Of a DNA stretch of 34,738 nt, positions 1,395-27,322 are shown one piece after another. The stretch comes from an uncultured Prevotellaceae bacterium (GTDB lineage: Bacteria; Bacteroidota; Bacteroidia; Bacteroidales; Bacteroidaceae). The stretch covers positions 1-34,738 of the forward strand of contig OMZS01000031.1 in NCBI GenBank assembly GCA_900315565.1. The letters are read 5' to 3'. The notes beneath the pieces were generated by a model. That model was not told where the DNA came from. It searched no databases and was given only the letters and a program-made list of their open reading frames with translations. The first letter of the stretch is position 1, and each line of letters starts with the position of its first letter. The translations under genes and the position numbers were made by a program.

Positions 1395-3152
1395 ATGTCG
1401 AAAATCTTAAAGTTGAAAGATCGTGGTTTATGGCGGATGGTGGTGTCGGTGCTGTTTGGTGTCGGCGTTTGGCTGTTTTGGTGGCAGCTCTATCCTCATG
1501 CGCTTTCTTATCAGGAGCAGTATCAGCTGTTTCAACTGACGAGTGACTATTTTTGCGAGCGGCTTTGCGCTGTCGGTGGTCTAGCCGACTGGCTGGGTGA
1601 GTTCGTCACACAATTTTATTTTATTCCTAGCTTAGGTGCTTTTTTCCTTGCGGTGGTCTTTGTGGCCTTGCAGCGACAGACGGCGAAAGTTTGTAATTTC
1701 CCCAACACCGGTTTATGGCTTCTCTCGTTTGTGCCGCCACTATTGTTGTTATGGCTGATGGGCGACGAGAGTGTGCTGCTGTCCTATCCCTTGGCATTGC
1801 TGATGGTGATGAGTGTTGCCTGCCTTGTGTCGAGTGGTGAGAATAAAGTTTCCGGTTTACGGCTTACAAACCAAAGCTCAAATCATAAAGTTCAAAGTTC
1901 AAAGTTCAACGTTCAAAGTCCCAATCCTAAAGTTCAAAGTCTCTTTGCTGCGGCCGATGCCCTGTTGGTAGTGGTGCTTTACTGGCTGGCAGGTCCGGCG
2001 GTGTGGCTGTATGCCCTGTTGCGTGTGGTGCTGAAGAGGAACTGGCGTTGGTTGTGGTTACCTTTATGGGTAGCTTTGGTAATGTTGTTGGCACGTGCTA
2101 CGGTGCTGCAACAGTGGCCTTGGCAGGAGGTTCTGCTCACCATGACCTATTATCGTGTTCCGATGCAGGTGCCGGTACTGCTGTGGTTGATTCCGCTGGT
2201 GATTGTGGCGCTTGTGGCTTTGGGGAGAGAGAGATTCCTTGGCAATGGTGGTTCGGCTGGCAGGTCGCGTACATCTTTTGGCTGGCTTTTGCTGGGAGGA
2301 GCGGCCTGCGTGGTAGTTGGTTTCTTGGCTGTGACGAAGGGATTCCCAAAGGACAAATACGAACTCATCAGACAGGATTATCTGGTTCGCAGCGAGCGGT
2401 GGGACGAGATTGTTGAACGCGCGCAGCGTTATCAGGTGCCTACGGCGTTTTCGTCGGTGTGTGTCAACCTGGCGCTGGGCATGCGTCATGAGTTGGCCGA
2501 CCGAATGTTCTCGTTCTACCAGAGCGGCGAAGACGCGCTCATCATGCCGCGCTATCGTGACCTTACTTCTGATTTGCCTTCGGCGGAGGCTTTTTGGCGG
2601 CTTGGCTTCGTGAACAGTGCCCAGCGATATATGTTCGACATTCAGGAGTCTATTCTCAATGGCAAGAAGAGCTGCCGCTGCACGCAGAGGATTGTGGAGT
2701 GCATGATGGTGAACGGTCACTACAGTGTGGCGCGCAAGCATTTGGAGCTGCTAAAGAACACGCTGTTCTACCGCTCGTGGGCGCTGAGTGCAGAGAAATA
2801 CTTGAACAACGATGCCTGGGTGAACACGCATCCCGTGTGGGGCCGTCTGCGTCGCCTGCGCTTTAAGGATAATTTCTTGTTTAGCTATTCTGAGATGGAT
2901 ACCATGCTGGGAATGCTCTACGATAATAATCATGAGAACCGGCTGGCCTTGGAGTATTTCTTGGGACAGTTGCTGCTGAAGGGCAGCATGCAGAAATTCA
3001 TGCAGTATTTGCAATGGGCGCAGCAGTCGGGGTCTTATCAGAGTATGCCCATTGGCTATCAGGACGCTGTGAGGTGTGTGCAGCAGCAGGGAAATGTGGC
3101 TGGCTCGCCTTATGCGGGGTATGTGAAGAGGAAGATGAGTGGGGGAGAGTAG
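1395..3152 (+). CDS. Module A1: polytopic membrane protein with helical TPR-like C-terminal region (DUF6057-like)
   Basis: This 585-residue protein has about eight hydrophobic segments in its first 315 residues. They include one at 13-31 followed by a conserved SYQEQYQLF motif, and one at about 70-92. A soluble, helix-rich domain of about 260 residues follows, starting near KYELIRQDYLV. The soluble part has paired-helix features, such as NLALGM, GFVNSAQRY and the KNTLFYRSWA block, resembling TPR-like solenoids. The protein is clearly homologous to the products at 5366 and 24462. I recall the Bacteroidetes family DUF6057 for this architecture, but that name is from memory. Function is unknown. 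An in-frame repeat segment at about residues 151-182 is absent from A2. B1 follows after a purine-rich gap of 68 bp. Confidence 0.72.
   Translation: MSKILKLKDRGLWRMVVSVLFGVGVWLFWWQLYPHALSYQEQYQLFQLTSDYFCERLCAVGGLADWLGEFVTQFYFIPSLGAFFLAVVFVALQRQTAKVCNFPNTGLWLLSFVPPLLLLWLMGDESVLLSYPLALLMVMSVACLVSSGENKVSGLRLTNQSSNHKVQSSKFNVQSPNPKVQSLFAAADALLVVVLYWLAGPAVWLYALLRVVLKRNWRWLWLPLWVALVMLLARATVLQQWPWQEVLLTMTYYRVPMQVPVLLWLIPLVIVALVALGRERFLGNGGSAGRSRTSFGWLLLGGAACVVVGFLAVTKGFPKDKYELIRQDYLVRSERWDEIVERAQRYQVPTAFSSVCVNLALGMRHELADRMFSFYQSGEDALIMPRYRDLTSDLPSAEAFWRLGFVNSAQRYMFDIQESILNGKKSCRCTQRIVECMMVNGHYSVARKHLELLKNTLFYRSWALSAEKYLNNDAWVNTHPVWGRLRRLRFKDNFLFSYSEMDTMLGMLYDNNHENRLALEYFLGQLLLKGSMQKFMQYLQWAQQSGSYQSMPIGYQDAVRCVQQQGNVAGSPYAGYVKRKMSGGE
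1845..1941 (+). repeat. In-frame AAAGTTCAAAGTTCAA repeat inside module A1
   Basis: A stretch containing GTTTACGGCTTAC-like sequence and then several copies of AAAGTTC (core 1887-1940) lies inside the coding region. It encodes a hydrophilic Lys/Val/Gln/Ser-rich loop between two membrane segments. Words of this kind are usually seen in Bacteroidales intergenic regions. The paralogue A2 passes from one membrane segment to the next without it, so it looks like an inserted repeat that kept the frame. Confidence 0.65.
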
Positions 3153-3220
3153 TAAAGATAGGAAAGAGGAGATAGAAAAGAGGAGGAAAAGAAAAAGGAA
3201 AGAAGAAAAGAGAAGAACAG
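3153..3220 (+). other. Polypurine spacer between A1 and B1
   Basis: Apart from a few T and C bases this 68-bp gap is purely A and G, with several AGGAG/GGAAAG cores. It resembles the purine-rich leader at 1270-1394, with GGAGATAGAA shared. It may give an unstructured, ribosome-accessible region. No hairpin or terminator is visible, so A1 and B1 are probably co-transcribed. Confidence 0.55.
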
Positions 3221-4714
3221 ATGTCAATAACCAAAACCAAATACGGGATGTGGGTGCTGGTGGCAGTGTGGCTGACGGCAGTGTTGCTGATGGTTGGTTG
3301 TGCGTCGAAACCGAAGGATGCACTGAAGGTGAACTCGCTGCCAGCTATCTATCCCGACTATGTAGGGGTGACCATTCCTGCAGGCATTGCTCCATTGGAC
3401 TTCAATATGACCGACGAGGCGGTGAGCCGGATGTACGTCACGGTACGTGGCAGCAAGGGAGGCGAATTGACGGGCAGCGGCGAGTGGGCACAATTCGACA
3501 TTGACGAGTGGCACCAGCTGACAGAGCAGAACCGTGGCGGAGAGTTGACGGTGGAGGTGTGTGCCGAGAAGAACGGACAATGGACGCAATACAAAGCATT
3601 CTCGATCTATGTGAGTGCGCTGCCGTTGGAAGACTTCGGGCTTACCTATCGTCGTATTGTCCCTGGCTACGAGGTGGGCGGCAACATTGGCATTTATGAG
3701 CGCGATATACATACTTTCGACGAACGTCCGTTGCTGATGGAGTCGGCTGTGCCGGGGCGATGTTTCAACTGTCATACGGCCAACCGCACCAACCCGCAGC
3801 AGCTGACACTGCAGATTCGTGGCGACGGAGGCGGCACCATGGTGCAAAAAGATGGGCGGCAGCAGTGGCTCAACACCAAAACCGACTCGACAAAGGCGGC
3901 GGGCAGCTACGCTTATTGGCATCCTGACGGCCGCTACTGTGCTTATGCCACCAATGCTGTGCACCAGGCTTTCTTCGTGGGCACAGGCCAGCGTATTGAG
4001 GCCTACCATAATTTCAGTAATGTGGTGGTGCTCGACACTCAGACCAACGAATTGTTGCTGTCGCCGCAGCTGATGACCGACGACCTGGAGATTTTCCCGG
4101 CATTCTCGCCCGACGGAAAGTGGCTCTATTATAGCACGTCGAAGCCCTGCCGGGTGCCAGCGGAATATGAGAAAGTGAAATGCAGCCTTTGCCGTATTGC
4201 CTTCAACGCCCAGGACGGCAGCTTTGGCACACAGGTGGACACCTTGCTCAACGGTCCTCTGACGGACAAGAGCTATACACTGGTGCGCCCTTCCTATGAT
4301 GGCCGGTGGCTGATGTACTGTCAGACCAGCCGCAGCAATTTTCCCGTGTTTCAAACGGATGCCGACCTATGGCTTATGGACTTGCAGACGGGGCAGACAC
4401 GTGCCATTGGCGAGGCGAACAGCCCACAGACAGACAGCTATCACAACTGGAGCTCAGACAGTCATTGGTTTGTGTTCTCTAGCAAGCGCGACGACGGCAT
4501 GTATGCGCGTCTTTACATGGCTTGCATCGACAGCAAAGGCAAGGTGGGTAAGCCATTTATGTTGCCGCAGCGCAATCCGCGGAATTATTATGCCAAGATG
4601 TTCGACTCGTACAATTGTCCGGACTTTACCAAGACTCCCGTAGATTTTGATGTCCGCGAGACGCACAGGCAGGTATTAAGAGACGAACGTGTGCAGGTGA
4701 AGATTAGAGATTAA
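3221..4714 (+). CDS. Module B1: CxxCH lipoprotein with TolB-like propeller
   Basis: This 497-residue protein has an N-terminal lipoprotein signal with the lipobox VGC at Cys27, so it should be lipid-anchored facing the periplasm. Residues about 40-130 form a conserved beta-rich domain beginning LPAIYPDYVGVTIP. A c-type heme motif CFNCH lies at 181-185. The remainder shows propeller-like blades: FSPDGKWLYY, PSYDGRWLMY, then a conserved YHNWSSDSHWFVFSSKRDDG. These resemble TolB/PD40 repeats. Homologues at 7202 and 25853 keep the CxxCH and the blades. Whether heme is really attached is unknown. The gene always follows a module A gene, suggesting that the two products act together. No named family is certain. 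Confidence 0.78.
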   Translation: MSITKTKYGMWVLVAVWLTAVLLMVGCASKPKDALKVNSLPAIYPDYVGVTIPAGIAPLDFNMTDEAVSRMYVTVRGSKGGELTGSGEWAQFDIDEWHQLTEQNRGGELTVEVCAEKNGQWTQYKAFSIYVSALPLEDFGLTYRRIVPGYEVGGNIGIYERDIHTFDERPLLMESAVPGRCFNCHTANRTNPQQLTLQIRGDGGGTMVQKDGRQQWLNTKTDSTKAAGSYAYWHPDGRYCAYATNAVHQAFFVGTGQRIEAYHNFSNVVVLDTQTNELLLSPQLMTDDLEIFPAFSPDGKWLYYSTSKPCRVPAEYEKVKCSLCRIAFNAQDGSFGTQVDTLLNGPLTDKSYTLVRPSYDGRWLMYCQTSRSNFPVFQTDADLWLMDLQTGQTRAIGEANSPQTDSYHNWSSDSHWFVFSSKRDDGMYARLYMACIDSKGKVGKPFMLPQRNPRNYYAKMFDSYNCPDFTKTPVDFDVRETHRQVLRDERVQVKIRD

Positions 4715-4764
4715 AGATAAAAATGGGCTGAAGAACGTTTTGATACTTAAATAAAGAAGAAATA

Positions 4765-5382
4765 ATGAAGAAAATTGTTTTTTATTCAATGGTGGCAGTG
4801 CTGTTGCTGACTGTCGCTGCTTGTAGCAAGAAAGAACAACCCGCAGGCCGTTGTCACATTGTGGGTGTGGCTCCTAATCCAACGTTGGAAGGCAAACGCA
4901 TTTTTCTGGTGCCTTTCTCGGGACCTGCCACGGCTGAGACCGTTGACTCAATTGAGATTCACGACGGGAAATTTGAATTTGACACCGACACGCTGATGAT
5001 GGCCAAGATTCTTATTGACTATCACTATCGCTTGGGCTTCCAGCCGCTGCTCGTGGTGGTGGAACCGGGTGAGGTGAAAGTGGTGGTAGATAGCATCAGC
5101 AGTGCTTCGGGAACGCCGCAAAACGACTCGCTGCAGGTGTGGAAAGAGGCTACCGAGCGCCATAACGCCCAGTTGATGAGCCTGCGTAAAACCAATATGA
5201 ACGCACAGGCCGACAGCATTCATCTGGCTTACAAAAAATACACGCGCCAAATGGCTGCGAACATGAAGGAAGGTCTGTTACACGATTTCCTGAACTCCCT
5301 CTATCCACTGACCTACCAGCGTAAGCTGTCCGACGGACGCACTATCACTGTCAACGCCGACACGAATGAAGAAATCAAGTAG
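4765..5382 (+). CDS. Module C: DUF4369-like lipoprotein without thioredoxin domain
   Basis: This 205-residue protein starts with a lipoprotein signal (lipobox VAAC, Cys20). It continues with a beta-rich domain of about 90 residues containing VGVAPNPTLEGKRIFLVPF, a DSIEIHDGKFEFD stretch and a VVVEPGEVKVVVD stretch. That order matches the DUF4369 domain usually found in front of a TlpA/ResA-like thioredoxin. Here the thioredoxin domain is missing: only a helical tail of about 90 residues follows, with no CxxC. It sits between the B1 and A2 genes and its last 17 bases overlap the start of A2, so it belongs to the same operon. Binding or scaffolding in the periplasm is possible but is inference. 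Confidence 0.68.
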   Translation: MKKIVFYSMVAVLLLTVAACSKKEQPAGRCHIVGVAPNPTLEGKRIFLVPFSGPATAETVDSIEIHDGKFEFDTDTLMMAKILIDYHYRLGFQPLLVVVEPGEVKVVVDSISSASGTPQNDSLQVWKEATERHNAQLMSLRKTNMNAQADSIHLAYKKYTRQMAANMKEGLLHDFLNSLYPLTYQRKLSDGRTITVNADTNEEIK

Positions 5383-7177
5383 CCGTTCGCAGACAGCCAC
5401 CGACCGTTCGCAGACAGCCATCGGCACTACGCGACGCTCTGGCCTGTGGCAATGGGGACTGACCTTGTTGCTGGGTGTAGCCGTGTGGGCATTTTGGGCA
5501 AAGCTCTATCCTTCGGCATTGGCTTATCAGGAGCAGTTTCAACTGTTTCTCACCACTCCAACCTATCTGTTGTCGCGTCTGTCATTGCCGGGCGGTGCTG
5601 CCAGCTATGTGGCCGAGTTCATGGTGTCGTTCTACAACAACATGCCCGTTGGTGCTATCTTTGTCGCACTGCTGCTGATGTTGCTGCAACGGCTGACGTG
5701 GCGGCTGATGAAACAGAGAACAGATGCCGAAGGCTATTATGTGCTCAGTTTTGTTCCCTCGGTGGCAGTGTGGCTGCTGATGGGCGACGAAAGCGTCATG
5801 TTGGCTTATGTCGTGTCGCTTTTGCTGGCGATGTCGGCCATGTGGGGCTATTCGGTGGTGGCGCGCCGTTACGGTGAGATTGTGCGTTATTTGTACGTGC
5901 TGGTCGTGCTGCCGTTGCTTTATTGGCTGGCTGGGCCCGTGGTGTTTATGTTCGCTGTTTGGGTGTTGTTGCATGAATGCGAGTTGCGCCCGACGTTTAT
6001 CGGTGGAATAGGGATGGGATTGCTCGCTGTGCTTTTGGCTTGGTGCATGGTGTTGGCGAGCAGTTTTTACGTAGCTTATCCTTTGAAGCGTTTGTCGCAG
6101 GGGCTTTTCTATTATCGTTTTGTTGATTTCATCTCCCCTTGGATTTACGTGCTGATGGCACTCTGTGTGCTGCTGCCTTTCGCTGTGCGGTGGATGCCTT
6201 CGCTGAAGGGCAAAACCATGTGCTGGGTCTTGGCAGGGCAGGTAGTGTTGCTGGCTTTAGTGTTTGTGGGACTGAAGTCGCGCGCTTATGAACCCCGGAA
6301 ATATGAGTTGATGGAATATGACTTCCTGGTGCGGCAAAACCGTTGGGATGACATTATCAGAAAGGCTGAACAAAAAACACCCGACCTGCCCATGAGTGTC
6401 TGCGCCACCAACCTGGCTCTAGGCATGAAAGGTCAGCTCTGCGAGCGGGCTTTCGATTTCTTTCAGCGCGGTACAGACGGTTTGTTGCCCAAGTTTGAGC
6501 GCAATTTCACGTCGTGTCAGGTGACAGGCGAGGCTTTCTTTATGTTAGGACTGGTGAACACTGCCCAGCGCTTCTCGTTTGAGAGCATGGAGGCATTGCC
6601 CAACTACAACAAAAGCTGCCGAACGGTGCGCAGGCTTGTAGAAACCAATCTGATCAACGGGCAGTACAATGTGGCGCAAAAGTATATTGACATGCTCAAA
6701 AACACGCTTTTCTATGCCAAATGGGCTAAGCGTACCGAGAAACTGCTGCGCAACGAGAAGGCCATCAACAGCCATCCCCTGTATGGGAGAATGCGACAGA
6801 TACGACTCACTGACGATTTCTTGTTCAGCGATCAGGAAATTGATAAAATCATGGGTCAATTGCTTTTGCGCAATCAGGATAATCAGCTGGCTATGCAATA
6901 TTTGCTGATGTGTCCGCTGCTCAGCGGAGACCTGAACACGTTTATGAACTATCTGTCTTTTGTGCAAAAAAATCACAGTTTCAATCCGCAAATTTGCCAG
7001 GAGGCCGTCTGTATGGTTTACGCCCAGCACAACCAACAGCCACCGCAAGCGGCTGTCAGTCCGCTGGTAATACAGCGATTCAGCAACTTTTACTCCATTC
7101 TGCGCTCGCAGGGAAAGAATGCCCCGCAGCTGCAGGCCTTCCGAAACACCCTTTGGTATTATCTGTTGAAAGATTGA
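5366..7177 (+). CDS. Module A2: polytopic membrane protein with TPR-like C-terminal region
   Basis: This 603-residue paralogue of A1 has the same plan: a first membrane segment, then the AYQEQFQLFLTT motif, further hydrophobic segments to about residue 310, then the soluble domain starting KYELMEYDFLV. Shared blocks include NLALGM, GLVNTAQRFSFES and NTLFYAKWA. It extends to a conserved C-terminal NTLWYYLLKD tail that A1 lacks but A3 echoes. The chosen ATG overlaps the end of gene C by 17 bases; no other in-frame ATG occurs before the first membrane segment. Just inside the start is a 21-nt tandem duplication coding RSQTATD/RSQTAIG. Function is unknown. Confidence 0.72.
   Translation: MKKSSSRSQTATDRSQTAIGTTRRSGLWQWGLTLLLGVAVWAFWAKLYPSALAYQEQFQLFLTTPTYLLSRLSLPGGAASYVAEFMVSFYNNMPVGAIFVALLLMLLQRLTWRLMKQRTDAEGYYVLSFVPSVAVWLLMGDESVMLAYVVSLLLAMSAMWGYSVVARRYGEIVRYLYVLVVLPLLYWLAGPVVFMFAVWVLLHECELRPTFIGGIGMGLLAVLLAWCMVLASSFYVAYPLKRLSQGLFYYRFVDFISPWIYVLMALCVLLPFAVRWMPSLKGKTMCWVLAGQVVLLALVFVGLKSRAYEPRKYELMEYDFLVRQNRWDDIIRKAEQKTPDLPMSVCATNLALGMKGQLCERAFDFFQRGTDGLLPKFERNFTSCQVTGEAFFMLGLVNTAQRFSFESMEALPNYNKSCRTVRRLVETNLINGQYNVAQKYIDMLKNTLFYAKWAKRTEKLLRNEKAINSHPLYGRMRQIRLTDDFLFSDQEIDKIMGQLLLRNQDNQLAMQYLLMCPLLSGDLNTFMNYLSFVQKNHSFNPQICQEAVCMVYAQHNQQPPQAAVSPLVIQRFSNFYSILRSQGKNAPQLQAFRNTLWYYLLKD
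5383..5424 (+). repeat. 21-nt tandem duplication at the start of module A2
   Basis: Two copies, at 5383-5403 and 5404-5424, share CCGTTCGCAGACAGCCA and differ only near the end. The period is seven codons, so the frame is preserved. It lies immediately after the stop codon of gene C, within the cytoplasmic N-terminus of A2. Confidence 0.7.
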
Positions 7178-7201
7178 ACCTCCTTATTACACCCTATTTA
7201 C

Positions 7202-8677
7202 ATGAGCTCTCTGAATACCCTGAAATTTTTTCTTTTTGCGGTGCTGATGCTGTTGGTTTCATGTACCGACCGGCCCGATAGCCCCAAAGAAAGCGGAAAA
7301 CTGCCCGCCATTTATCCCGATTACGTCGGAGTGACCATCCCTGCTGAAATTGCACCACTCAATTTCAATAGTGCTGACAGTGCTGTGGACCGCATCGATG
7401 TAGAAGTGCGCGGTTCTAAAGGCGGACAGATACATGCCAATGGGTGCTTTGCCGATTTTGATGTTGACGAGTGGCATCAGCTCACCCAGCAGAATCGTGG
7501 TGGACAGTTGGTCTTCACCGTCTGCACGCGCCAGAGCGGACAATGGACGCGTCATCAGGATTTCTCCGTCAACGTCAGTCCTGAGCCCCTCGGCGAATGG
7601 GGACTCACTTACCGCCGCATTGCTCCCGGCTACGAGGTGTATAGTCACATGGGACTCTATCAGCGCGACCTGAGCAATTTTGATGAGCGTGCTATCCTCG
7701 ACAATACTCAGGCACCTGGAGCCTGCATCAATTGCCACACGAGCCACCGTACCAATCCCGACCGCTTCGTGTTTCATGTGCGCGGTCCGCACGGCGCTAC
7801 CATGGTGCAGATCAACGGCCAACGCGAGTGGCTTCAGGCCTCCAACGAGCAGTTGGGCGGTTCGATGGTGTATCCGTATTGGCATCCCGAAGGGCGTTTC
7901 TGTGCCTTTTCTACCAACCAGACCCGACAGGGGTTCCACGTTACTCGGCGCGAACGTATTGAGGTGTTCGACCTGGCAAGCGACATTTTTGTCTATGACA
8001 CCCAGACGCACCAGCTCATCACCGACACTCTGCTCATGACCAAGGAATGGAGCGAAAATTCGCCTGTCTTCTCGCCCGACGGCAAATGGATTTACTTCCT
8101 CTCCTGTCGGCAGCAAGACTATCCTGCCCACTATAAAGACGAGAAATACAATCTGTGCCGTGTGGCCTTCGATGCGAAAAATTGCAAGTTCGGACAGCAA
8201 GTCGATACCATCTTCAACGCCGTCAGTCAGGGCAAAAGCCTCACTTGGCCCCGGCCCTCGTACGACGGGCGATGGATGATGTTCACACTCATCGACTATG
8301 GTTATTTCTCCGTATGGCACGACGAGGCTGAACAATGGCTGCTCGATTTGCAGACAGGCAAGGCTCACCCGTTGACAGAGGCCAACAGTTCTCGCTCCGA
8401 CAGTTATCATAACTGGAGTCTCAACAGCCACTGGGTGGTGTTTACCAGCCGCCGCGACGACGGATACTACTCGCGCCTTTATCTCTGTTCCATCGACTCA
8501 CAGGGGCGGGCGTCGAAACCTTTCATGCTACCCCAGCGCAATCCGCTCGAATATTATAGCGAAAGCCTTTACTCGTTCAATACGCCCGACTTCACGCTGA
8601 AACCCGTTGAGTTTGATGCGCGGCAGGCGGGCTACGAGATACTTAGCGACAAACGGGTGGAAACAAAGAAAGAGTAA
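7202..8677 (+). CDS. Module B2: CxxCH lipoprotein with TolB-like propeller
   Basis: This 491-residue protein is a close homologue of B1. The lipobox is LVSC with Cys21. The LPAIYPDYVGVTIP domain follows at about 34-47, then the heme-type motif CINCH at 175-179, then propeller blades with FSPDGKWIYF, PSYDGRWMMF and YHNWSLNSHWVVF. The C-terminal FMLPQRNP motif is shared with B1. It lies 24 bp after A2. The nucleotide similarity to B1 is obvious in long stretches, for example around the DEWHQLT codons, which points to duplication of the A-B pair. It ends the operon; the downstream gap holds a large inverted repeat. Function is unknown, but the heme motif argues for a redox or heme-related role. 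Confidence 0.78.
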   Translation: MSSLNTLKFFLFAVLMLLVSCTDRPDSPKESGKLPAIYPDYVGVTIPAEIAPLNFNSADSAVDRIDVEVRGSKGGQIHANGCFADFDVDEWHQLTQQNRGGQLVFTVCTRQSGQWTRHQDFSVNVSPEPLGEWGLTYRRIAPGYEVYSHMGLYQRDLSNFDERAILDNTQAPGACINCHTSHRTNPDRFVFHVRGPHGATMVQINGQREWLQASNEQLGGSMVYPYWHPEGRFCAFSTNQTRQGFHVTRRERIEVFDLASDIFVYDTQTHQLITDTLLMTKEWSENSPVFSPDGKWIYFLSCRQQDYPAHYKDEKYNLCRVAFDAKNCKFGQQVDTIFNAVSQGKSLTWPRPSYDGRWMMFTLIDYGYFSVWHDEAEQWLLDLQTGKAHPLTEANSSRSDSYHNWSLNSHWVVFTSRRDDGYYSRLYLCSIDSQGRASKPFMLPQRNPLEYYSESLYSFNTPDFTLKPVEFDARQAGYEILSDKRVETKKE

Positions 8678-24259: not shown

Positions 24260-24397
24260 CTTGCAGTGTAAAGAATTATGCTTTACCTTTGCAACATCAA
24301 ATAGTAGGACCTTAGGAAATGATATTATAGGTTTTGCAGTAAGTATTAATAAGTAGTAACGCAAAAACGCCCTGAAGTGATTCACGGCGTTTTTTTT
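24260..24397 (+). ncRNA. Putative small RNA or leader (about 100 nt) with its own promoter and terminator
   Basis: A promoter CTTG (24260-24263)-N20-TACCTTTG (24284-24291) predicts a start near 24298. About 70 bases later comes a strong intrinsic terminator: AACGCC (24366-24371) pairs with GGCGTT (24386-24391), with an inner TGAA/TTCA stem, followed by eight T. The roughly 100-nt transcript has no useful reading frame (the only ATG gives three codons). It could also be an attenuated leader of the downstream A3 gene, or simply the terminator of the AraC-type gene with a cryptic promoter. Confidence 0.5.
24366..24397 (+). terminator. Intrinsic terminator upstream of module A3
   Basis: Outer stem AACGCC/GGCGTT, a C-C mismatch, inner stem TGAA/TTCA, loop GTGA, then eight consecutive T residues. 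It is the clearest rho-independent terminator in the window. Confidence 0.85.
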
Positions 24398-24461: not shown

Positions 24462-25856
24462 ATGAAACAGACGCTGTCACGATATTATGTTTTTGCAGTC
24501 ATTGCCCTCTGGGCGGTGCTGTGCTTCGTGTTTTTCCAGTTTTTCTATCCCTACCATTTCTTTTATAAGGAGCAAAACCAGCTGTTTCTGATGACCAGCG
24601 ACTGGCTCATCACTTATTTCGACCGAATGGGCTGGCTGGCACGCATGGCCGGCGAATTTCTGACGCAGTTTTACTATTATCTTTTTGCTGGGGCTGCCAT
24701 TCTGACGGTGGTGCTCACTGTGCTCTGCACTGCTCTCTTCCTGTTGTTGAGGCGGGCAGGGGTGAACCGCCATGTGGCCTTGGCCGTTGCATTGCTGGTG
24801 ACTACGGTGGAGGCTGTGTTTCACCTGCACCACAGTTTTCCGCTCTCGGCCACGTTTTCGCTGTTGGGGTGGGTGCTGGTGCTCATGCTGGTGTTTCCGT
24901 TTAAGAAAAGGTTGGGGACGCTCGTCGGAGTCCTACTTCTGCCCGTCGCCGCCTGGCTCTTCGGTGTGCCGCAGCTGGGCAAGCTGCGTGGCCCCGATTG
25001 GTATGTTGAGCGGCAGCTGGCCGTGGATTGCGAATATTACTTTGGTCATTGGGACAAGGTGCTCAGCCTGGTGGAGCAAGATGCCGCGCGCACACCCGAA
25101 ATGAAGTTCTTTTACAATTTGGTGCAGGCGCAGCGCGGGCAGCTGCCCGAAGTGCTGCTGCGGTTCGACCAGCCCGAGCTGGGAACCTTCTATGCCATTG
25201 GCCCCGACACGCCCCTGATGACCATCAAGAACATGAACGAGCTCTACTGGGCGCTGGGCGACATGACTTACACTGAGCGGGCAGCCATGATGGCCAACGT
25301 GTTTTCGCCCGACAACCGCAACGTGCGCATGATGAAGCGGCTGGCCGAATGCAACATGGTGAGCGGCGATACCGCTGCGGCCAAAAAGTATTTGGGCATA
25401 CTCAGCAGCACGCTCGTTTTTCGCAAATGGGCCGAAAATGCGCCCAAGACAGTCTTTTATGCTGAGAAAGCCCGTTACAACAACCAGAAAGACACAGTGT
25501 CGCTGGGCGACAATGCCCATAACATCATGATGCAGCTGCTCGACTCTAATCCCGAAAACAACGTGGCACTCGACTACATTCTGTGCAGCAATCTGCTGCT
25601 CAAGGACGTGCAGAACTTTAAGCGCGATTACGACCGTTACTGCACCGAGCGTCCCCGCCCCAATAAACTCTATCAGGAGGCCCTCTGCATCTGGCTCGCT
25701 GCCAGCGAGGCCGATGAGGCCGAATGGCAGCGCTACATCAAGAGCGCCGACGTGATGCAGCGTTTCGCCCAGTACAACGAGCAACGGGGCAACCCGCGCT
25801 TCAAGGGCACATACTGGTATTATTTTGACAAAGCAACAACTCCGAAGGTACAATGA
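24462..25856 (+). CDS. Module A3: shorter polytopic membrane protein with TPR-like domain
   Basis: With the start at 24462 (MKQTLSRYY) this is a 464-residue protein; the frame is open from 24396, but the promoter falls inside that extension. Hydrophobic segments occupy about residues 8-170, preceded after the first by the conserved FFYKEQNQLFLMTS motif. The soluble domain begins about residue 175 and carries NMVSGDTAAAKKYLGILSSTLVFRKWA, equivalent to the NTLFYxxWA block in A1 and A2. It ends GTYWYYFDKA like A2's tail. It has fewer membrane segments than A1/A2 (roughly five). Its stop overlaps the B3 start (ATGA), which confirms the A-B pairing. Function is unknown. Confidence 0.7.
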   Translation: MKQTLSRYYVFAVIALWAVLCFVFFQFFYPYHFFYKEQNQLFLMTSDWLITYFDRMGWLARMAGEFLTQFYYYLFAGAAILTVVLTVLCTALFLLLRRAGVNRHVALAVALLVTTVEAVFHLHHSFPLSATFSLLGWVLVLMLVFPFKKRLGTLVGVLLLPVAAWLFGVPQLGKLRGPDWYVERQLAVDCEYYFGHWDKVLSLVEQDAARTPEMKFFYNLVQAQRGQLPEVLLRFDQPELGTFYAIGPDTPLMTIKNMNELYWALGDMTYTERAAMMANVFSPDNRNVRMMKRLAECNMVSGDTAAAKKYLGILSSTLVFRKWAENAPKTVFYAEKARYNNQKDTVSLGDNAHNIMMQLLDSNPENNVALDYILCSNLLLKDVQNFKRDYDRYCTERPRPNKLYQEALCIWLAASEADEAEWQRYIKSADVMQRFAQYNEQRGNPRFKGTYWYYFDKATTPKVQ

Positions 25857-27322
25857 ACAAAACCGTCATACTTCTCCTGCTGGCCATCTTTGCCCTGGCC
25901 TCATGTACACCCACCCCCAAGAACGTACGCACAAGCAACGCGCTGCCGCCTGTCTATCCCGACTATGCCGACATAACCATCCCCGTGAACATTGCGCCGC
26001 TGAACTTTCTGGTGCGTGGGGCTGAGGCCGTCAGTGTGGTGGCTGCCGGCGTGACGGTAAGCAACCGTGGCGAGGAGGTGACGTTCACGGAGAGAGAATG
26101 GCGCCGACTCTTGGAGCAGAACAAGGAAATCACAGTGACGGTGACAGCACTCATGAACGGCCAGTGGACGCAGTACAAGCCGTTCAGTTGGCACGTAGTA
26201 GCCGACCGCATTGACCACTATCTCACCTACCGCCTCATTGAACCCGACTACGAGGTGTTCAGCCATCTCAGCCTGCAAGAACGCTGTGTTGAGAACTTCG
26301 ACGAGCGCCCCATCTGCCACCACGAGCAGGTGGGCAACCGTTGCATGAACTGCCATGCCTATGCCAGCCAGAACCCCAACCTGAGCATGCTCTACGTGCG
26401 CGGCGAGGGTGGGGGAGCCATTCTCAACCGCGACGGACAGTTGCACAAGCTCAACCTGAAGACTTCCGACATGGCCTCGGGCAGCGTTTACTACTCGTTC
26501 AGTCCCAACGGCCGCTATCTGGTGTTCTCTACTAACAACATCATTCCCGCTTTCCACTCCAAGCCCAGCAAACGGCTCGAGGTGTATGATGCCGTGTCGG
26601 ATGTGTATGTGGCCGACCTGCAAGAAAACCGCATCTTCACCTCGCCGCTGCTTGCCGACAGCACGGCTTTTGAGACCTTTCCCACTTTTGCCCCCGACGG
26701 CAAGCGCATCTATTTCTGTGCCGCGCCGCGCGTCAGTCTGCCAGGACAGCTGAACGAGTTGCAGTACAGTCTGGTGAGCATAGGCTTCGACCAGCTGACG
26801 GGCACGCTCGGCACCAGCCTCGACACCCTTGTCAACGCCCGGCGCCCACAGCCCGATGCCCAGCGCTCGCGGCTCACTTCGGTCTGCCACCCACGTGTAA
26901 GCCCCGACGGCAAGTACATGCTCTACACCGTTGCCCACTATGGCACTTTCCCCATCTGGCACCCCGAGGCCGACCAGCAGCTCATGAACTTGCAGACGCG
27001 CCAGACGGTGTCTCTCGCCAGGGTCAACAGTCCGCGCAGCGATACCTATCACAGCTGGTCGTCGAACAGCCGCTGGTTTGTTTTCGCTTCCAAACGCGAC
27101 GACGGACTCTACGGGAAACCCTATTTCTGCTACATCGACCGCCAGGGAAGGGCTCACAAGCCTTTCTGTCTGCCGCAGAGGCACCCTTCGTTCTACGACC
27201 ATTGCCTCAAGTCGTTTAACGTGCCCGAGCTGGGGCGCGGGCCGCTGCCCTTTACCGCAGCCGACGTGGCCAATGCCATGCGCCGCGATGCCGAAACGTT
27301 TCAGTCTGCTCACCATGAATAA
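25853..27322 (+). CDS. Module B3: CxxCH lipoprotein with TolB-like propeller
   Basis: This 489-residue protein is the third B member. The lipobox is ALASC (Cys18). The N-terminal domain starts LPPVYPDYADITIP. The heme-type motif CMNCH is at 164-168. Propeller blades include FSPNGRYLVF, FAPDGKRIYF, VSPDGKYMLY and YHSWSSNSRWFVFASKRDDG, and the C-terminal FCLPQRHP corresponds to FMLPQRNP in B1/B2. It is more diverged than B1 and B2 are from each other. Translation is coupled to A3 (ATGA overlap) and the AraC-type gene follows 15 bp later. Attachment of heme by a Ccm system is unproven; the conservation of CxxCH in all three copies supports it. Confidence 0.78.
   Translation: MNKTVILLLLAIFALASCTPTPKNVRTSNALPPVYPDYADITIPVNIAPLNFLVRGAEAVSVVAAGVTVSNRGEEVTFTEREWRRLLEQNKEITVTVTALMNGQWTQYKPFSWHVVADRIDHYLTYRLIEPDYEVFSHLSLQERCVENFDERPICHHEQVGNRCMNCHAYASQNPNLSMLYVRGEGGGAILNRDGQLHKLNLKTSDMASGSVYYSFSPNGRYLVFSTNNIIPAFHSKPSKRLEVYDAVSDVYVADLQENRIFTSPLLADSTAFETFPTFAPDGKRIYFCAAPRVSLPGQLNELQYSLVSIGFDQLTGTLGTSLDTLVNARRPQPDAQRSRLTSVCHPRVSPDGKYMLYTVAHYGTFPIWHPEADQQLMNLQTRQTVSLARVNSPRSDTYHSWSSNSRWFVFASKRDDGLYGKPYFCYIDRQGRAHKPFCLPQRHPSFYDHCLKSFNVPELGRGPLPFTAADVANAMRRDAETFQSAHHE

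Follow-up and report, generated by a model that had tools for sequence, protein, structure and literature searches.

What two adjoining genes, one for a membrane protein and one for a propeller lipoprotein with a CxxCH motif, might do when they are kept together in copy after copy is the question raised by a 34,738-nucleotide stretch of DNA (hereafter the window) from an uncultured Prevotellaceae bacterium (GenBank assembly GCA_900315565.1, contig OMZS01000031.1, here C5). A preliminary description, made from the letters alone, had placed an operon A1-B1-C-A2-B2 at 1395-8677 and a third copy of the A-B unit at 24462-27322, and the reading frames, Pfam matches and identities agree with this layout. 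As judged from the sequences, A and B are almost certainly a functional, co-diverging pair, and B very likely represents a c-type cytochrome with a covalent heme at its CxNCH motif. Taken whole, A-B would be a membrane-tethered mono-heme cytochrome unit for particular glycan loci, probably working in electron transfer, a reading to which we give about an even chance of being right.

The three A proteins, all encoded on the forward strand, are members of the Pfam family PF19529 (DUF6057), whose entry states no function, and they score far over its cut-off of 29.8 bits: A1 (1395-3152, 585 aa; E 1.3e-130, 437.5 bits, profile positions 5-516 of 569, the last ~50 being unmatched), A2 (5366-7177, 603 aa; E 1.5e-168, 562.7 bits, positions 3-567) and the short A3 (24462-25856, 464 aa, in an open frame that begins at 24396; E 5.3e-123, 412.3 bits in two stretches). 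Each is followed on the same strand by a B gene, after a gap of 68 bases in the first copy and 24 bases in the second and with an overlap of 4 bases in the third: B1 (3221-4714, 497 aa), B2 (7202-8677, 491 aa) and B3 (25853-27322, 489 aa), of which B1 is 49% and B3 39% identical to B2. As first described, every B has a lipobox-like cysteine, one CxxCH motif and propeller blades. The blades are matched by PD40 (E 1.5e-9, 1.4e-9 and 7.7e-19 for B1, B2 and B3), the sole Pfam family over its cut-off, while no NCBIfam cut-off was reached; the motif reads CFNCH in B1 (residue 181; 3761-3775), CINCH in B2 (Cys175 to His179; 7724-7738) and CMNCH in B3 (residue 164; 26342-26356). Between the first two pairs and on the same strand lies C (4765-5382, 205 aa), DUF4369 as a stand-alone protein (PF14289, E 1.6e-9) with a lipoprotein-like start. 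The homology among the copies is far above chance, which rules out chance or artefact as the source of their likeness.

Are A and B a pair outside the window as well? We read the stretches around A matches in 198 genomes of the order and around the two matches over the cut-off that 296 genomes of the phylum gave outside the window's own genome, together with 77 loci found through B in named genomes (77 distinct ones among the best 80 matches, a sample leaning to close relatives). Among the 204 full-length B proteins collected (440 aa or more), 201 have an A within 400 bases and in the same orientation, and of the three without A one stands where the stretch read begins. The A gene lies upstream in 179, on both sides in 17 and only downstream in 5, and the strict A-before-B order seen in the window consequently fails elsewhere. 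Only 7 of 192 full-length A proteins have no B, four of them where the stretch read ends and three being true orphans (genomes G350, G325 and G402). A and B are thus not commonly found apart; frequent separation was what the preliminary description had named as counting against a functional pair. In each of the three orphan genomes a further contig holds a B that lacks an A, perhaps as the other half of a split pair (loci L091/L146 in G350, L094/L148 in G325 and L100/L147 in G402); the lone B is broken in G325 and lacks CxxCH in G402. At the level of genomes, a manual tally of the order gave 20 with both genes, one with A only (61% complete), one with B only (82% complete) and 176 with neither (p 3e-25), B being scored on at most seven candidates per genome. 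Full-length B proteins number one in 57 loci, two in 30 and three in 29. The distances among A proteins and those among their B partners correlate at 0.92 over 184 pairs, compared with a mean of 0.41 and a maximum of 0.50 in 200 shuffles of partners within their locus; therefore, the partners diverge together beyond the shared ancestry of their locus, each A going with its own B.

The CxxCH motif is present in 202 of the 204 full-length B proteins and in 161 of the 165 B frames of the named loci, the other four being pieces of B; the residue ahead of the second Cys is Asn in 199 of the 204. The two full-length B proteins that lack it (L106 in G471 and L147 in G402) share 28% identity and fall into different halves of the tree, where L147 forms a long branch of uncertain position. 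Position 403 (8408-8410 of the forward strand in B2) changes along with the motif: it is His in 195 and Pro in 7 of the 202 CxxCH-bearing proteins and Ala in both CxxCH-less ones (p 0.0017). Furthermore, only six of the 64 columns conserved to at least 90% are altered in both heme-less proteins, namely Cys175, Cys178, His403, Gly198, Glu254 and Val255, and His179 and His403 are the only histidines conserved both in B and in a distant family of single-chain relatives described below. These patterns point to a His/His heme c with His179 as one ligand and, most likely, His403 as the other. In the seven proteins that combine CxxCH with Pro403 (L107, L110, L229, L234, L235, L238 and L239), a site of the heme might be left free.

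If heme is attached to B, a synthase would be needed, and the window's own genome has two loci of the heme-attachment System II, which, with CxxCH and the export pattern of the lipobox, fits a c-type cytochrome. One of these loci (L290) lies with NrfA; the other (L291) encodes a fused protein of 704 aa, directly follows a RidA-like gene and has a di-heme oxidoreductase nearby. We tallied the synthase manually in genomes of the window's family that are at least 90% complete after rounding, taking A as present at a best E below 1e-25 and the synthase as present at PF01578 over its cut-off, and found it in 102 of 104 genomes with A versus 35 of 48 without (p 5e-6, in statistics that ignore the kinship of these genomes); two unlisted genomes, G665 and G679, were taken as at least 90% complete and without A and synthase, as the tallies require. 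A ResB part found in G501 brings the first count to 103 of 104. In Bacteroides sp. UBA1317 (L225), an operon inside a polysaccharide utilization locus joins the synthase to A-B: SusC, SusD, a gene for a 275-aa lipoprotein-like protein, A, B, a RidA-like gene, the synthase gene CcsBA and a gene of glycoside hydrolase (GH) family GH3 follow each other, with a few bases of overlap between B and the RidA-like gene and with CcsBA beginning one base after the latter; among the 128 loci scanned, this is the only one with CcsBA within reach of A-B. According to a published account, B. thetaiotaomicron has ccsA/resB loci, one of them with nrfAH (PMC10434189). The near-invariance of the motif, its coupling to His403 and the association with the synthase together make CxxCH very probable as a heme site.

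On which side of the membrane would B work? The lipobox pattern, a pattern match only, is present in B1, B2 and B3 and in 178 of 214 B frames. Acidic residues behind the lipid cysteine are the usual surface signal of lipoproteins, and in the five positions after this cysteine we counted 0.62 of them in B, compared with 2.11 in SusD and 1.74 in the further lipoproteins nearby. Without the usual surface signal B should face the periplasm, a location that we consider likely.

The A alignment shows eight hydrophobic segments, one of which, with 26 residues, may be two, and the EQ-x-QLF motif noted earlier is present in A1, A2 and A3 and lies in the first loop. The KNTLFY-x-x-WA block, also named earlier, was recovered in A1 and A2 and is missing from A3, which has STLVFRKWA instead. 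The supposed TPR-like nature of A finds no support in the sequence, as no TPR model of Pfam matched at E up to 1 and hhalign against the TPR parts of the single-chain family gave probabilities of 0.3% and 1.4%. Solved structures gave no useful match for A (best E 0.12). A heme-b or quinol enzyme is excluded, because A has no conserved His. Weak DUF6057 matches elsewhere are, by eye, mixed membrane proteins (FtsW-like, O-antigen-ligase-like, GT-C-like, GT-C-TPR-like and chemoreceptor-like), and a GT-C glycosyltransferase was set aside since membrane make-up alone explains such matches. Two side observations concern this family in the window's genome. Inside A1 a short DNA repeat is set in frame (1878-1940, residues ~162-182), with like stretches at ~40 other places of the genome (42 matching places, nearly all to 1878-1940). 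On another contig (C17, L019 5497-6588), an A-like gene coding for 363 aa and lacking a B, as far as could be found, adjoins a gene read by eye as a glycogen branching enzyme; weak DUF6057 matches akin to this A-like gene recur in the genus.

The family of single-chain relatives of B in the Bacteroidales offers a hint of how B and a membrane partner may be arranged. B is homologous to these proteins over nearly its full length (hhalign 99.9% to L286), and CxNCH and His403 are kept; they differ from B in that one chain carries a membrane anchor and, in part of them, TPR repeats. The relatives at four loci (L284, L285, L286 and L287) have their own N-terminal membrane segment, CGNCH and a propeller, a C-terminal TPR is clear in 2 of 5 single-chain relatives with a weak match in one, and no A was found in the stretches read around L284-L287. 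From this architecture one may guess that B acts next to a membrane anchor and a helical repeat; it is no more than a hint, because the C-terminal part of A is not recognisable as TPR. B shares PD40 blades with TolB and matches TolB chains in the Protein Data Bank (PDB) by profile at E ~0.003-0.009, whereas its N-terminal part and CxNCH lie outside the match, and TolB is not known to have a CxxCH. B1, B2 and B3 reach 21.4, 29.5 and 35.3 bits against the TolB model TIGR02800, far from its cut-off of 343.15, and B3 only 13.1 bits against that of the type IX secretion protein PorE (cut-off 600); both assignments were rejected. Heme c plus a propeller is known from cytochrome cd1, quinohemoproteins and the alpha subunit of hydrazine synthase. 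None of these heme-c propeller enzymes appeared among the PDB or Pfam matches of B at E up to 1, and the idea of a kinship with hydrazine synthase was dropped, as these searches gave no sequence match; the NCBIfam model QH_alpha matched B3 at E 0.2 only.

The neighbours of A-B point to glycan use. In the loci of the order and phylum sets, SusC and SusD together lie near A in 13 of 41, compared with none of 40 control regions of like length taken from other parts of 13 of these genomes (p 5e-5; SusC alone 14 versus 0, SusD alone 13 versus 2), as scored with SusC and SusD models built from A-B loci and hence biased to them. The 77 named loci have SusD in 46, a further lipoprotein in 41 and DUF4369, the family of C, in 49, with a recurring Prevotella-like order of SusC, SusD, lipoprotein, A, B, DUF4369, A, B and then B-A on the other strand. 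Besides GH3 in L225, genes of GH5 (L192, L227), GH26 and GH130 (L205), GH43 (L194), GH35 (L206), GH36 (L089) and GH115 (L018) are found as neighbours, and a hybrid two-component regulator adjoins A-B in L096. In the window there is no called gene of SusC length, its contig beginning only 1394 bases before A1; G652, of the same genus, has SusC, a SusD-like gene (by eye) and A-B in one row (L293). The window's own genome (3.33 Mb, 40 contigs) holds five A-B pairs, the extra ones lying on C28 and C30, and the C30 pair, whose A has only 404 aa, is preceded by SusC- and SusD-like genes and followed by a GH115 gene.

A RidA-like gene stands in 17 A-B loci, within 250 bases in 13, and once in the 40 control regions, and it is seen beside single-chain B genes too (L284, L287). 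These genes match RidA and some also match the FkbO/Hyg5 chorismatase models; such a partly chorismatase-like gene recurs in L077, L097, L152, L225, L291 and others. As a further observation, 3 of the 8 SusC proteins scanned have a C-terminal OmpA domain (L224, L227, L233). In part of its loci A-B shares a gene run with the SusC and SusD of polysaccharide utilization loci (PULs), whose usual parts are transporter, binding proteins, enzymes and regulators; A and B are not known to be among them. The frequent placement of A-B inside loci of gut and rumen Bacteroidales for the use of plant fibre hints at a redox step.

In the mechanism that we propose, B would be exported, held at the membrane by its lipid and given one heme c, which CcsBA, the synthase of System II, would fix at CxNCH. 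Its propeller would be the face towards a partner or substrate, A would be the inner-membrane partner holding B by what we infer to be direct contact, and B would deliver electrons to, or take them up from, an enzyme or a substrate in the periplasm that belongs to its locus. The copies of A-B would sit in different PULs, often with SusC, SusD, lipoprotein, the DUF4369 protein (C) and the RidA-like protein, and on this ground we assume that each copy serves a single glycan system. With a His/His heme, electron transfer is the likeliest job, and whether it is the main role appears to us evenly balanced. The many paralogues, each with its own A, speak for locus-specific work rather than for one general carrier. 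Of the preliminary guesses on function, heme handling and electron transfer seem to point the right way, and envelope assembly stays as a rival. A bolder form of the proposal, in which the units would be dedicated glycan-specific periplasmic cytochromes and each A-B would donate or accept electrons in a redox reaction of a glycan, of one of its side groups or of an enzyme belonging to the same PUL, is in our judgement rather unlikely.

Several observations weigh against the cytochrome reading as a whole. Regarding the heme, two full-length B proteins lack CxxCH, one of them still beside an intact-looking A, seven CxxCH-bearing proteins have Pro at position 403, and His373 is also lost in both heme-less proteins, although this position is variable (His in 164 of 204). 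Regarding the pairing, A and B share the same nearest neighbour in only 49 of 142 cases, and their division into six clusters agrees at 0.34. The synthase association is weak across the order (20 of 21 genomes with A versus 134 of 177 without; p 0.03) and not significant in the window's own genus (7 of 7 versus 7 of 10; p 0.18), and G528 has A with neither a PF01578 synthase nor ResB found. System II also serves NrfA and the di-heme oxidoreductase, which makes the co-occurrence indirect evidence, and the genomes counted are kin. The bias of the SusC and SusD models counts here too, and a SusC-SusD pair is missing from 28 of the 41 loci, which makes the glycan setting frequent and not universal. 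Finally, A offers no conserved His, and since its segments are even in number, its C-terminal part would lie in the cytosol, away from B, if the N-terminus is inside.

The two CxxCH-less proteins imply that heme is not needed by every pair, and part of the function can, by this token, survive without it. This opens the way to a scaffold for envelope assembly or glycan handling, in which heme would be structural or accessory where present. Both proteins lost their cysteines and heme ligands and yet retain the majority of the columns conserved for the fold, PD40 propellers commonly act as binding scaffolds, and SusC, SusD and DUF4369 are fitting neighbours. A motif kept in 202 of 204 proteins, its coupling to His403 and a synthase gene in the L225 operon speak against an accessory heme, and we hold a scaffold to be unlikely.

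Many paralogues each with its own A could also belong to a heme-based sensor, in which the redox state of B or a bound gas would alter the propeller and A would signal across the membrane, tuning the glycan locus. Two-component hybrid regulators stand beside some copies (L096), AraC-type regulators (proteins 8 and 9) flank the third pair in the window, and a site of the heme would stay free in the Pro403 forms. Pfam finds no known signalling domain in A, however, most loci have no regulator in the same operon, and the conserved second ligand fits electron transfer better; such a sensor seems to us quite doubtful. That CxNCH is a disulfide or metal site is improbable: heme in B is read from sequence, there is one motif per protein and the Asn is nearly fixed (199 of 204) beyond the needs of heme attachment, but the joint loss of both Cys and His403, the association with the synthase and the shared L225 operon all speak for heme.

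Upstream of A1 on the reverse strand (246-851) lies a DUF6088/AbiEi-like gene (Pfam E 1.9e-53; PADLOC AbiEi E 2.4e-59). The PADLOC anti-phage models gave no match for A1, B1, C, A2, B2, A3 or B3 at E up to 0.001, and a known defence system was set aside for these seven proteins on this ground.

The preliminary description knew of no system composed in this way, and our literature search likewise turned up nothing on the A-B pair and no characterised pathway that matches it; no paper naming DUF6057 or PF19529 was found among the PubMed Central (PMC) texts searched, a scope that mostly leaves aside subscription papers. We found no description of this two-gene unit, present in many copies in gut and rumen Bacteroidales, and it thus appears to be undescribed. 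DUF6057, a family without a known role, is common in the family of the window, in which it exceeds its cut-off in 223 of 251 genomes, in some only as short or partial matches. If A-B is a cytochrome unit, the glycan loci of the Bacteroidales would hold a redox part that ties the use of fibre to the supply of heme. If, moreover, the units proved to be glycan-specific cytochromes, a heme-dependent layer of PUL function would be a hitherto undescribed type of system.

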